DNA of 64,000 nt, from positions 109,936,829 through 110,000,828 of the forward strand of contig NC_051063.1 in NCBI RefSeq assembly GCF_004664715.2. Reading direction: 5' to 3'. The position numbers and the translations under genes are program-made. Below the pieces are notes generated by a model. That model did not search any database. It was not told the DNA's origin and saw only the letters and a list, made by a program, of their open reading frames with translations. The DNA comes from Peromyscus leucopus. Lineage: Eukaryota; Chordata; Mammalia; Rodentia; Cricetidae. Every line of letters starts with the position of its first letter. The stretch's first letter is position 1. Positions 23,249 to 46,530 of the stretch are shown here, piece by piece.

Positions 23249-23261
23249 AGCCACTTCTTTT

Positions 23262-23884
23262 TTTTTGACCTTTTTTTAAATTTTTTTTTTATTTTACAAC
23301 ACCATTCAGTTCAACATAATAGCCACAGATTCCCCTGTTCTCCCCCTCTCGCCCCCCTCCCCTCCCCCCAGCCCACCCCCCATTCCCACCTCCTCCAGAT
23401 CAAGGTCTCCCCCGAGGACCGGGATCGACCTGTTAGACTCAGTCCAGGCAGGTCCATTCCCCCCCTCCCAGACCGAACCAAGTGTCCCTGCATAAGTCCC
23501 AGGATTCAAACAGCCAACTCATGCAACTAGCCCAGGACCCAGCACCAACGCACAGCTGCCTCCCAAACAGTTCAAGCCAAATGACTGTCTCACCCATTCA
23601 GGGGGCCTGATCCAGTTGGGGGCCCCTCAGCCTTTGGTTCATAGATCCTGTGCTTCCATTCATTTGGTTAGAGAGATGGCAGGAACTGACCTACTCTGGT
23701 GATGGGATGGACAGACACCCTGATAGTTGTGCCATAAACCCCATCCAAGGACTGAGGAATCCGGATGCAGACATCCACGGCTGGGCCCCTGGTGGAGCAC
23801 TGGGAGTCTAATTAGTGAGAAAGAAGAGGGTTTATATGAGCGAGAATTGTTGAAGCCAAGGTTGGATAAAGCACAGGGACAAAT
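23262..23884 (-). mobile_element. Second 5'-inverted L1 insertion
   Basis: From 23262 to about 23668 the sequence is L1 3' UTR on the minus strand, with its tail as a T-tract at the left. From about 23669 to 23884 it is upstream L1 sequence on the plus strand (compare 43640-43850, same strand, near-identical). AGCCACTTCTTTT at 23249-23261 and 23885-23897 is the target-site duplication. The plus part ends at '...acaaatagcc' and the minus part begins where that RNA would continue, so the two halves are collinear across the inversion. Confidence 0.92.
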
Positions 23885-23897
23885 AGCCACTTCTTTT

Positions 23898-41351: not shown

Positions 41352-42690
41352 GCAGTTCCCTCTTCCCAAATTATTTTTATCTTGTATCAAATTGACAAAA
41401 CATGAGCCAGTCCACTAGGGTACATAGTGGAGGAAAATCTGGTCTATAAAGACCAAGTTTGCACAATCTCAGTAAAGAATGAACCACAGCTAGTAAAAAT
41501 AGGGTTTTAAAGCCAATGGCACATTGTAGGCTTGGAAAAGTGGTACATCATGAAAGTTTTCAGAGCTTTGTTGGCAATTTTGTATACTTTTAAGTGATAA
41601 AATAAGTATTAAGTAATGAATAATGTTATAATACAATAAGGCAGTTTTAAGTAGGTTTAATTTTTGATTGACTAAAATTTGTAAATATTTATAGCACAGT
41701 ATATGATATTTTCACACATAGACATTTTACAATGCTCAAATCATTTAAACATACTCATCTCGTCAATCCTTTTCATCCCAGATTTCCAGAAATATTTCAT
41801 ATAGGAGCACTTTTTAATAAGTAATTGGAAAGATCAAATTTATGACTATAAACAACTTCTACGTGTTATGTAAATTGCATCTGACACGAAAGTGTTTGTT
41901 GGGAGAGTAGTTAAACACACGACCTAAGGTGTGATAATTTTGGTGGTGGCTCACCTCAGGAGTACATCGAGAGCATGGGGAAAAGAGAGTGGGCATTTTG
42001 TGTACAAAGCCACGAGACTGTTCTGTTTCATTAACTCACTGAATTAGGTGACACATGACAGGAGGACTCAAAAGACCTGAGAATCTTTTCACCCAGGTGA
42101 AATTTTAGCATTTCTACACAAGTACAACTCTGCAGTATTTTTCCTTTGCTTTAAGGATGAGTCTGGGCCCTTAGTACTGAAGGTGGGAGAAAATATAAGC
42201 TATCCCCAACTGTATATTTGCCTGCTTATTATATTAGTATCAGCTGTGTGCAAATCTGAGCACATGGTCTACAGTTTGTCCCTTCCCTCCTCTTCTCTGC
42301 CTGGAGCTCTGTCCCTTTTAAATGTCTCCACTGCTATTCCTTCTAATATCAAAATTCTCCAAAAATTCTGACGTGTTTGATATTTTTGTCAAAATACATC
42401 TATTAGCCAGCTCCTTGGTCTCTGTTCTCTTTGCTCTGTGTAAACTCTTATTTCTATTCTGACCATACTTGGAATACTTGTGGCTATTGCTAAATATATA
42501 TATATATATAAAATTTATATATTTCTTGTTTGTCATAAACGAAGAGGCCAAACTCATTTTATTTTTACGTCTTCACAAGGAAATACTATTCCAGAAAAAA
42601 AAAGCAGTATAGTTTAATTGGGCCACTAATGCTTAATTGTTTATATTTTTACCTCGTTTATATTTCAGAACAAATTGTGGACTTATGGAG
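41352..42690. other. No recognised feature; possible Mbl2 3' UTR in its right part
   Basis: AT-rich DNA with a TA run at 42494-42511. The part immediately left of 42730 should contain the 3' untranslated region of the Mbl2 retrocopy on the minus strand. I cannot fix where it ends and see no convincing T-tract for a poly(A) tail. Confidence 0.35.
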
Positions 42691-42729
42691 CACAATAAGG
42701 CATCAACGAGGACTGAGAAACAAACACCC

Positions 42730-43170
42730 TCAGTCTGAGAACTCACAGACTGCCAAAAAGGAGTCCAAGCAGTGGACATCATTCCATTTGCTATTTAACA
42801 GGAGTACCACACACTCTTTCTCATCCCCTGTGTTGTTGGGTTCACCATCATTCCAGTTAGTGTACTGCAGTCTGTTTCCTTTCAAGTCCAAAAACTGGTT
42901 TTCAGTCCTCTCATCTGTCAAGCCCATGTAGGCAATCTCTTTAGCCACCTTCTGCATTTTTCCTCAGCATTCCTGGGAGTGAGGCCTGGAATTGGGAGCA
43001 CAGAGCCTTCACTCCATTAAAGCTCATTTTTCTGCCAGTGTTCACAAAGCACTTCTTTCCAGCTTCTTCACTTGTGGAGAAGAGCACCCACCTCTTAATG
43101 CCTCTCAGCTCTGCTTGTAGAGCTGCGATTTCTGCATTGATTTTTCTGGTATCATATTCTCTGCACCATC
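42730..43170 (-). pseudogene. Mbl2: Mbl2 (MBL-C) processed pseudogene, neck and lectin domain
   Basis: The functional gene encodes a secreted collectin that binds mannose-type sugars on microbes and starts the lectin complement pathway. On the minus strand the neck reads EYDTRKINAEIAALQAEL and runs directly into the lectin domain (...RWVLFSTSEEAGKKCF...). The intron that separates these exons in the family is absent, so this is a retrocopy. The C-terminal 75 codons (42730-42957) are open and keep EPN, WND, the VCEFSD end and a stop codon. Cysteines in ALCSQF, ECVV, VHC and VCEF are also kept. The frame breaks around 42955-42985, with two short gaps relative to the expected sequence. A further 2-base shift lies at the neck start. 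The match is to MBL-C rather than MBL-A. Confidence 0.93.
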
Positions 43171-43190
43171 AGCAGGTTAGTGGTCACACT

Positions 43191-43926
43191 GCCTTTGCAG
43201 GCAAATGGATGGATCTAGAAAATTCATCCTGAGTGAGGCAACCCAGACTCAGAAAGACAAATATGGTATGTACTCACTCATATGAGGATACTAGAGGTAG
43301 AACAAGGATGACTGGACTGCTACTCACATCACCAGGGAGGCTACCTGGAACACAGGACCCCAAGAAAGACACGAGGATCACCCAATGATGGAGAAATGGC
43401 TGAGATCTACATGGACAACCTAGACATGAGTGGGAGTAATGAAGGGCGAGGGTCAAGGGAAAGAGAGCCTGTGGGAGTGGGAGATCCCAGCTGGATCAAG
43501 AACAGAGAGGGAGAACAAGGAATAGGAGACCATGGTAAATGAAGACCACATGAGAAAAGGAAGAAACAAAGTGCTAGAGAGGCCCACAGAAATGCACAAA
43601 GATACCCCCACAACAGACTGCTGGCAATGGTCGAAAGACAGCCGGAACTGACCTACTCTGGTGATGGGATGGCCAAACACCCTAATAGTCGTGCCAGAAA
43701 CCCCATCCAAGGACTGAGGAATCTGGATGCAGAGATCCATGGCTAGGCCCTGGGTGGAGCTCTGGGAGTCTAATTAGCGAGAAAGAGGAGGGTTTATATG
43801 AGCGAGAATTATTGAAACCAAGGTTGGATAAAGCACAGGGACAAATAGCCAAACGAATGGAAACACATGAACTATGAACCAAAGGCTGAGGGCCTGCCAA
43901 CTGGATCAGGCCCTCTGAATAGGTCA
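43191..43926 (+). mobile_element. L1 3' segment between the two Mbl2 parts
   Basis: It starts near 'tttgcaggcaaatggatgg' (end of ORF2). It continues through 'catcctgagtgaggcaacccagac' and 3' UTR sequence nearly identical to 23669-23884, and stops at 'ccctctgaat', short of the G-rich tract and tail. It has no poly(A). Its right end runs into the Mbl2 collagen segment on the same strand through the shared bases GGTCA. Confidence 0.88.
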
Positions 43927-44032
43927 AGGGCTCAGAGGCTTGCAGCACCCTTCTGGAAAGATAGGACCAGCAGGATCCCCAGGGACTCCTGGGCCAAAGG
44001 GAGCAGTGGGGCTAAAAGGAGACCATGGAGAG
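43922..44032 (+). pseudogene. Mbl2: Mbl2 processed pseudogene, collagen-like segment (inverted)
   Basis: The plus strand translates as GQGLRGLQ followed by Gly-X-Y triplets (GKIGPAGSPGTPGPKGAVGL is part of it) to GDHGE, the collagen-like stalk of MBL-C. One Gly position is lost (QHPSGK where QGPPGK is expected). It lies on the strand opposite to the neck and lectin domain. Its last codons are the ones that would precede the neck at 43170. In life the stalk trimerises the protein and carries the serine-protease binding site; here it is a fossil fragment with no signal peptide or start. Confidence 0.88.
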
Positions 44033-44038
44033 CCTCTG

Positions 44039-44090
44039 GCCCACCCCCCATTCCCATCTCTTCCAGGGCAAAGACTCCCCTGGGGATGGA
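44039..44090 (-). mobile_element. Short reversed L1 3' UTR scrap
   Basis: GCCCACCCCCCATTCCCA and the bases after it match the reversed G-rich L1 3' UTR at 23357-23412, at roughly 80 percent by eye. It has no tail and immediately follows the collagen segment. Confidence 0.75.
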
Positions 44091-44099
44091 GTTCATTTC

Positions 44100-46530
44100 T
44101 TAATGAGAGAAGCTGGGACCATGTTACAGGTACTGAGTCCACAGGAAGTAGCACATGCTCTTCCCGTTTGAATAATGAGGAACTCAGAGAGAATATTGCT
44201 GATTTCATTCATGACAAATTTCAGTAAAACCAAAATATAATTTATATATTATAGCATATGTACTTTAATATTTTAACCTCTGGTCTGAAAGGTTATTAAT
44301 TACCTATGGCCTGTATTAAATAGATGCTAGTAACACACACACATACACACACACACAACTGCTTGTGAAATTCAACGGTGTGTTCTATGATACATCTCCC
44401 CTTTTAGAAGGAGAAAAGAGCAAAAAATAAAATGAAAATGCACCAGGAGTCAGTGACTCTGTGGTCACATTGTTCAAATGATGCCAGTTTATCTTTAGAA
44501 TGATCCTGTGAGGTTGGATTCAAAAGCCATATGCGGTACTCAATCTCTTCCTTTGGAGACCCTGGGGATGAATGCACAGTGGTGTTCACAAAAAACTAAA
44601 GACATTGCTCATTGTTTGCCCCAGATGACTTCTGCCTTGTTTTATATTCTACATTATAGGGAATGACATCATTTATACTAGGTGAAGGGGAAACGTTGTC
44701 AGAGATAAATTAGATTGCTGTCCTGTCACAATAAAGGTCTCATCTTTCATTGTGAAGACTCCAAATCCTTCCCAAAGCATCAGGGAAATACAGCATTCAA
44801 ACAACAAAAGGACAGCAAGTTGCTTTCATGGGATTCCATCTCTACAAAAGACAAATACTTCTTTGAAGACAATTCTCAATGACCCTCCAGTTGCACAGCA
44901 ATGAATGTATGCCCAAAACCCTGGGGTCATATTTATCCATATTTTTAGTATTTTGGTTTGTTTATTGATATGCCAAAAAGGTACAGTAGAATAGAAAGTA
45001 AGTGTTGTTAAAATGACTGCTTTTTTTAATTCAGGAAAATAACCTACTCAGGCAAGCATCTATTTCCTTCACCTGCATTAGAATTAATACCAGTTAAGCA
45101 GTACAACTCAGAGACTTAAATGCATTTAGGACTATAAAACTCTAGCATCATGCATGACACTTAATAAATTATCTTCATTTTATTTTGGGTTATTTGTAGT
45201 TTTAATAGAGAAAGTTGAAGAAGGGGAGTAGGATAAATAAGTTGAACAAAGTACAATGTTAATTTTCATAACACTTTGGCTGATATTGGTGGTTAGATGT
45301 GAGCATTAACCTCTCCCAAAGCTTGTTACATTCTTGGAGAGATAGTGCCATCAGTGGAGGCCACATTGGGAGCAAATGACTTCTTATGCCACAGATAACC
45401 TACCTCATTCTGCCTAAGTCTCAACAACAACAAAAAAAGTACTCCTTTCTCTTTTCTCCTTTTCCCCTAATGCAGACTTTCCTAGAAAATTAATAGCTGG
45501 GGATATGATCAACAAAATCAATTTAGATGCAAGTGCTTTATAGTGACATATTAATTGTTTGGAAAGCATAAAGGTATCAAGGACAATGCTAAGACATTCA
45601 TACCCTGTGTTTCAAAATACATGAGAATTCCACATGGAATCATTAAAGAGCATGCTAATTCATTCTTTAAAAAAAGAAAGACAAACTTGAGTGAAAGGAC
45701 ACTAGCTTCTGAGCATCACAATCAGAAGAATCTAGTCTGCAACCTTGACATCCATGCGCCACTCTGCTTTGTACTTTGGAGTGATTGGAAGCTGATTATT
45801 GAATCTCCTGTTCATGGCTTTCAAATTAGTTATCCTATTCTTTTTTCTTTAAATTTTAACTGAGCTGTATCATAGCATCATCAACCCCTTTCCCTAAAGC
45901 CTTTACCTCCACTACATTTAAAGTTATTGCTAAGTCATAACCTGTGTTTCTATCATTCCATCAGCAACATATTTATACCTTGACACCATATAAACCAAGG
46001 TGGCCTTTTCTTTCTGAATTTTTTCCAACACCCCCTCTTCCCTCCACCACCACCACCATTCTCCTCAGCCAGCCCACTCCTCACAACTAACACACTCTAA
46101 CCTGCTCTCTCAGATTGAAAAGTAGTTCATTATCTTTCATCCTTCCTGTTTGAGCTAAAAATGTTCAATGAATCTTAGTATACATCTGTCCATATCAAAT
46201 GTTAATGTTCAAACCCATCCCACACGCCCGAAGGAAGGATTTCAGACTATTCTTCATTAATATGTAAACTCCAGCTGCCATTTTTCAATGCAAGTCATCC
46301 CTCTTATCAGCTTGTGAACTCTATCAACTGCTTATGTTCTTATTCCAGAATCCTCAATTGCATTTCCTCCCCCTGCCTTACGTGCATTTGGCAAACTGAC
46401 ACCTATGTCTTGTTCTAATAGCATTTCAAAGACTTGAGAAGCTTTCTCTGGTGCCAATAACTCTCAAGAGGCTTAAGCTTCCCTATTGTGTACATTCCTA
46501 GAAATATTTCTCACAACATTAAATGCACAG
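44100..46530. other. No recognised feature
   Basis: A short CA run lies at 44333-44357. A short open frame ending at 44227 contains an acidic ENIADFIHDKFQ end that I cannot assign. About 2.3 kb is otherwise unassigned. Confidence 0.4.

Follow-up and report, generated by a model that had tools for sequence, protein, structure and literature searches.

An inverted L1-Mbl2 chimera in Peromyscus leucopus, best read as one insertion of a spliced RNA

Processed pseudogenes whose 5' part has been inverted by twin priming are a known kind of element; L1-mediated processed retrocopies carry a target-site duplication (TSD) of about 7-20 bp, and the L1 endonuclease cuts at sites like TTTT/AA. Classical L1 3' transduction reads through the L1 end, and spliced integrated retrotransposed elements (SpIREs) lose internal L1 sequence.

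The closest described systems are the human spliced mRNA/LINE-1 chimeras of Law and Burns (2026; PMC13174262). In the available text of that report, host exons lie upstream of an L1 that is mostly near full-length and gives the 3' end, 15 of the 17 host loci have no intronic L1, and antisense mRNA chimeras are linked to twin priming and show no splicing features. Exonised L1s of the mouse form a second point of comparison (PMC2176070; BMC Genomics 2007): the available portion of that paper describes antisense L1 acceptors used for exons of host mRNAs, sense L1 donors from the beige L1 insertion (BG_SD+4694 and BG_SD+4903), and one mouse cDNA that uses sense and antisense L1 together.

The locus described here lies in a 64,000-nucleotide stretch of Peromyscus leucopus DNA (C1:109936829-110000828; hereafter the window), part of a genome of 2.475 Gb. 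An earlier note had recognized in it, at 42730-44090, an alternating Mbl2(-)/L1(+)/Mbl2(+)/L1(-) mosaic, and all four blocks are present by tblastn and L1 comparisons. With Onychomys Mbl2 (P0001) as query, the minus strand yields the neck and the start of the carbohydrate-recognition domain (CRD) at 43159-42977 (88.5%) and the remaining CRD at 42957-42733 (92%; E 6.8e-67), and the plus strand yields the collagen region at 43922-44032 (86.5%; E 6.8e-17); among the top protein matches of the Mbl2 pieces are one from Onychomys torridus (84%) and an 'MBP-C-like' protein of Peromyscus maniculatus (89%, with 78% of the query covered). The L1(+) block at 43194-43922 is 94-96% identical to 39 other genomic L1 copies among the matches listed (40 of 7757), and the L1(-) block, from about 44040 to about 44089-44095, is 83% identical over 48 nt to one L1 of the window and 94-100% identical over 55-63 nt to genomic L1 copies among the 40 matches listed. 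The ends given for the mosaic have to be moved outwards, as the unit is larger and runs from 42524 to 44234; it is best read as one insertion lying inside a 16-bp TSD. Its parts are as follows.

42508..42523, no strand: left TSD copy, ATAAAATTTATATATT, identical at 15 of 16 positions to 44235-44250
42524..42526, minus strand: very short remnant of an A-tail, AGA on the minus strand between the end of gene homology and the TSD
42527..42732, minus strand: Mbl2 stop codon and 3'UTR, with AATAAA at 42558-42563
42733..43089, minus strand: last Mbl2 exon (CRD), frameshifted, mapping to C1:24168672 onwards
43090..43158, minus strand: Mbl2 neck exon, 69 nt, matching C1:24167809-24167877
43159..43193, minus strand: cassette exon from the collagen-neck intron (at least its 3' part), ending in GGTGCAGAG and matching C1:24167446-24167485
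43194..43922, plus strand: L1 3' region as an exon, stopping at CTGAATAG
43923..44039, plus strand: complete Mbl2 collagen exon, 117 nt, matching C1:24164913-24165029
44040..44234, plus strand: intron-derived exon, antisense L1 (about 44040-44095) followed by unique intron sequence, matching C1:24166176-24166372
44235..44250, no strand: right TSD copy, ATATAATTTATATATT

By resemblance, the L1 exon probably falls in the L1 '3'UTR'. Very probably the whole arose when the L1 machinery inserted a spliced chimeric L1-Mbl2 RNA in a single event, with its 5' part inverted by twin priming. The copy is a dead pseudogene and implies no function for Mbl2.

Because an intact Mbl2 gene is found in the same genome, with coding exons from C1:24164151 and a 3' end placed by homology at 24169251, each non-L1 piece can be assigned its place. 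Identity to the gene, counted over ungapped positions, is 194 of 203 for the 3'UTR at 42527-42730 (two gap events), 328 of 352 for the CRD exon (four gap events), in which the reading frame is broken near 42957-42984, and 66 of 69 and 106 of 117 for the neck and collagen exons respectively, neither of which has a gap. The cassette exon agrees at 27 of 30 positions with one gap event (85% in a separate alignment), and the intron-derived exon at 188 of 195, also with one gap event, its unique Mbl2 intron part contributing 140 identities in 145. Neck and CRD exons are joined directly in the copy, which lacks the gene's intron of about 0.8 kb between them and keeps only two exon-like pieces of the collagen-neck intron. 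Whatever RNA lay between 24166372 and the cassette exon left no trace in the copy and cannot be recovered from it. One of the two exon-like pieces provides the 30 nt before the neck. Antisense L1 was tried as a source for these 30 nt and rejected, the matches to three of four L1 copies being no better than 200 shuffles and the fourth equalling the best shuffle.

A genome search with the CRD and neck part gave four candidates, all of which were scored: the locus itself, two exons of one gene, and C8:99096749. A second Mbl2 gene as parent was accordingly rejected, these candidates yielding only one gene besides the locus. The remaining candidate, C8:99096749-99096947, matches the CRD part at 68% and is perhaps a related collectin gene.

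We note that C1:24166176-24166372 and C1:24167446-24167485 are candidates for hidden exons within the collagen-neck intron of Mbl2, the first of them made from an antisense L1 fragment. The Peromyscus maniculatus MBP-C-like protein (P0003, 149 aa) has MR at its N-terminus in place of the normal sequence, exactly up to the neck exon, and this N-terminus may come from a transcript with the same cassette exon, which gives AGA-G before the neck. Mbl2 exon boundaries were also sought in PMC4916122, the available text of which gives none.

The joints within the copy fall at splice sites that can be seen in the gene or in sister copies of the L1 (a slash marks the joint in what follows). The gene's collagen exon reads CTTCCTACAG/GTCAAGGG..GGAGAGCGTGGGG/GTAAGG; its 117 nt in the copy are an exact fit in length, and L1 gives way to collagen at the exact first base of the exon (CTACAG/GTCAAGG). 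The neck exon in the gene reads ..TTTTCTAG/AATGTGAT..AAGAGGT/GTAAGT, and the cassette exon is followed there by a donor, GTGAGG, that scores 10.2 vs 8.3 for that of the collagen exon under approximate weights, all splice-site scores here being based on general splice-site frequencies and not on a fixed matrix. On the L1 side, the exit point reads AATAG/GTGAG in nine of 15 distinct sister copies, which were chosen as the best matches to the L1 parts of the locus and are therefore not a random sample; the others show ATGAG (one), loss of a base to give TGAGA (one) or a different sequence (four). Outside these 15, a more distant copy (L017, 89%) has ATGAG after GATAA, and the other L1 loci compared gave no match at this point. 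By the approximate weights the L1 donor ranks second of 24 and first of 33 GT sites in two of the four L1 copies of the window, and it is outside the six best in the other two.

At the far end of the collagen exon the copy continues with CCCACCCCCC, which directly follows the AG of a long antisense-L1 pyrimidine tract. In one L1 copy of the window this AG ranks first of 26 acceptors, and in three older copies the best antisense acceptor is elsewhere. The gene at the start of the intron-derived exon reads CCCTCCCCACAG/CCCACACCCC, with ..CCCCTCCCCACAG likewise ending at the joint. The joint is slightly blurred: over 44033-44039, the final 7 nt of the collagen exon, three positions disagree with the gene, a higher share than elsewhere, and in some genomic L1 copies the match reaches back as far as 44033. 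The L1(-) segment was part of the RNA, since it continues into unique Mbl2 intron sequence, and it is an L1 fragment of the parent Mbl2 intron that required no insertion of its own.

The precision of these joints bears on a different origin for the L1, in which reverse transcriptase copied Mbl2 mRNA as far as the first base of that exon and then changed to an L1 RNA as its template, the exon being the collagen exon. Such a jump would suit the 2-nt overlap (GT) at the L1/collagen joint, and L1 chimeras formed by a switch to another RNA template are discussed in the available parts of PMC13174262 and PMC4476161; however, it would have had to land by chance at both the exact exon start and the GTGAG donor of L1, the next joint likewise pairs an exon end with an acceptor, and the same L1 base forms the joint in a separate L1 subfamily described below. 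We consider this origin improbable and retain splicing as the source of the joints.

Because the exon that follows the L1 is the collagen exon rather than the one before it, the joint points to an intronic L1 since lost, to trans-splicing or to another route. No sense L1 matching the L1 exon was found in C1:24000301-24174300 (174 kb, E 1e-5), an interval that begins about 164 kb before the first coding exon and ends only 5 kb beyond the gene, and the only two matches of the L1 exon there are antisense (88% at 24152004-24152420 and 76% at 24148341-24148443); the 587-bp intron before the collagen exon has no match to it. Quite possibly an L1 once lay in that intron and was spliced in cis, having since been lost or never having become fixed; trans-splicing is a somewhat less likely maker of the L1/collagen joint, and otherwise another route was used.

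The earlier note had suggested looking for a single TSD round the entire unit, and the 16-bp repeat that brackets 42524-44234 answers to this description. Either copy, at up to two mismatches, occurs only at these two places on the plus strand of the 64-kb window. The 15/16 agreement is reached by none of 500 dinucleotide shuffles and by six of 500 same-geometry pairs of window stretches, and because those six real pairs equal it the repeat, which is AT-rich, is moderate evidence when taken alone. The Mbl2 homology was found independently of the repeat, and its limits, 42527 on the left side and 44235 on the right side, coincide with the inner edges of the TSD or lie next to them; a looser alignment extends the right-hand homology to 44240 with two mismatches. 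At the 3' end the gene reads CGCGTG after ACAAACA, and the locus reads AGA and then the TSD, such that the poly(A) tail amounts to only about 3 nt; AATAAA lies 34 nt upstream of the 3' end. The site before insertion would have read ..AAAATTTATATATT ATAGCATATG.., and the nick site TATT/AT in this reconstruction (TATATT^ATAGC) is a weak match to the L1 endonuclease consensus.

Inside the unit, a search for repeats flanking the inner blocks found none at the thresholds used. Run on the same window, the script recovered the 13-bp TSD of the twin-primed L1 at 23249-23897; on three older L1s of the window it gave none for two and only two 8-bp matches for the third. That element, a short, 5'-inverted L1 3' end with a perfect 13-bp TSD (AGCCACTTCTTTT), is itself a clean example of twin priming in this window.

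The idea that a single L1 inserted later into an Mbl2 retrocopy was discarded, as neither a tail nor, at the thresholds used, a TSD belonging to the L1 block was found. A plain twin-primed L1 insertion was rejected because the L1 orientations, plus on the left and minus on the right, are the reverse of those at 23249-23897. That pattern and the alternation of four blocks might instead suggest several independent events, namely an Mbl2 retrocopy, later L1 insertions and then a genomic inversion, yet the inner blocks lack flanking repeats at the thresholds used within one outer TSD, no L1 tail is seen inside, and the L1(-) passes into unique Mbl2 intron sequence that reaches the TSD; this history is highly improbable. 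That the Mbl2 gene was duplicated as DNA and rearranged, which would account for the intron sequence in the copy, is scarcely credible, since the copy lacks the neck-CRD intron and its intron pieces end at splice sites.

Several elements of the preferred reading, a single insertion of a spliced chimeric RNA, were already in the earlier note, and others were not. It had proposed a chimeric RNA with L1 5' and Mbl2 3' and a 5'-inverted insert, with which the single TSD, the ends of homology and the collinear order agree. Its remark that the inner L1 block lacks its own tail is borne out for L1(+), and the separate TSDs round that block which it named as evidence to the contrary did not appear at the thresholds used. 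It had also held that turning round 43191-44032 restores the Mbl2 order; this is correct for the order of the exons, which after reversal is the gene order on C1, and incorrect for the limits, the inverted block being 43194-44234. The splice joints, the derivation of the terminal L1(-) from an Mbl2 intron and the short cassette exon before the neck are additions to it.

The chimeric RNA would have comprised, from 5' to 3', L1 as far as its 3'-region donor, the collagen exon, the exon of antisense L1 and intron sequence, the cassette exon, the neck exon, and the CRD exon and 3'UTR with AATAAA. Target-primed reverse transcription by the L1 enzyme would have started at the Mbl2 3' end (left, minus strand) and proceeded through the CRD, the neck and most of the cassette, while the second strand of the break would have primed inside the intron-derived exon and been extended 5'-ward across the collagen exon as far as 43194 in the L1. 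Joining of the two cDNAs would then leave the 5' part inverted, as expected of twin priming, which we infer to be the cause of the inversion. The inversion itself is plain: 43194-44234 is inverted relative to 42527-43193 and both lie inside the single TSD, with about 3 nt of microhomology (AAA) at the inner joint between L1 and the cassette.

The L1 base at which the transcript left L1 appears to have been used a second time. Four of the 15 sister copies (L020, L021, L025 and L026) read CTGAATAG and then ATCTCTGAAGTATTCGAAGGCCACC, a leader of about 25 nt that in one of the four ends CAC-A instead of CAC-C, followed by a second L1 3' end that is about 85% like the first in an alignment of two of the four copies. 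At the donor position this second 3' end has ATAAG instead of GTGAG in all four. The arrangement is multicopy: the 22-mer ATCTCTGAAGTATTCGAAGGCC has 122 exact places in the genome (control 0), all 20 of those fetched are preceded by L1 up to the joint base, 17 of the 20 with CTGAATAG unchanged, and a 36-mer across the joint has 244 places at up to three mismatches (control 0). We infer that the subfamily was founded by a splice at the same L1 base; no acceptor locus for it was found. The L1-Mbl2 copy suggests that this L1 carries a usable splice site near its end. Tentatively, there may be a rodent L1 lineage with a working 3'-region donor (AATAG/GTGAGA), the RNAs of which repeatedly swap their 3' end for downstream exons, with the L1-Mbl2 copy and the subfamily as products; if so, L1 3' ends evolve by spliced 3' transduction. 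The available portions of PMC10089650, on deer-mouse transposable elements, and PMC6530004, on sigmodontine L1s, contain nothing relevant on UTRs or splicing.

On this reading the locus is a base-level record of an RNA, possibly made no longer, in which an L1 transcript was spliced to the middle part of a host gene, and the same RNA records two hidden Mbl2 exons, one of them from antisense L1. It illustrates how L1 can shuffle exons while itself supplying the 5' part, and the recurrence of the L1 joint in a multicopy subfamily leads to a claim that can be tested: a splice close to its 3' end would help L1 to change that end. Among the matches listed in the open-access literature, we found no description of a chimera with L1 first, spliced to host exons and inserted with an inversion, and none of the AATAG/GTGAG donor in L1.

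Comparison with the known systems places the locus among several of them. Like the chimeras in the available text of PMC13174262, it is one insertion that combines host exons and L1, with some joints at splice sites and one TSD, and as at 15 of the 17 loci described there no intronic L1 was found near Mbl2; in contrast, L1 here forms the 5' part and the host gene gives the 3' end, the reverse of the published order. Splicing features, not reported in that text for the antisense mRNA chimeras linked to twin priming, here occur together with it. The cases in the available part of PMC2176070 are transcripts, whereas here such a transcript would have been reverse transcribed and inserted. With SpIREs, as presented in the available text of PMC5860796, it shares the character of a retrotransposed product of spliced L1 RNA, but host exons here replace the L1 3' end. 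As in L1 3' transduction, host sequence is carried downstream of L1; unlike in that process, the L1 3' end is missing, as after splicing. The loss of introns, the TSD, the inverted 5' part and the microhomology at the inner joint are those of a twin-primed processed pseudogene, from which the locus differs in that the RNA was abnormal, containing sense L1, antisense L1 and cassette exons, and in that the tail is nearly absent. The kind of event is already known; the L1-first order, the 3' end given by a host gene, and the conjunction of splicing with inversion set the locus apart from the chimeras described in PMC13174262.
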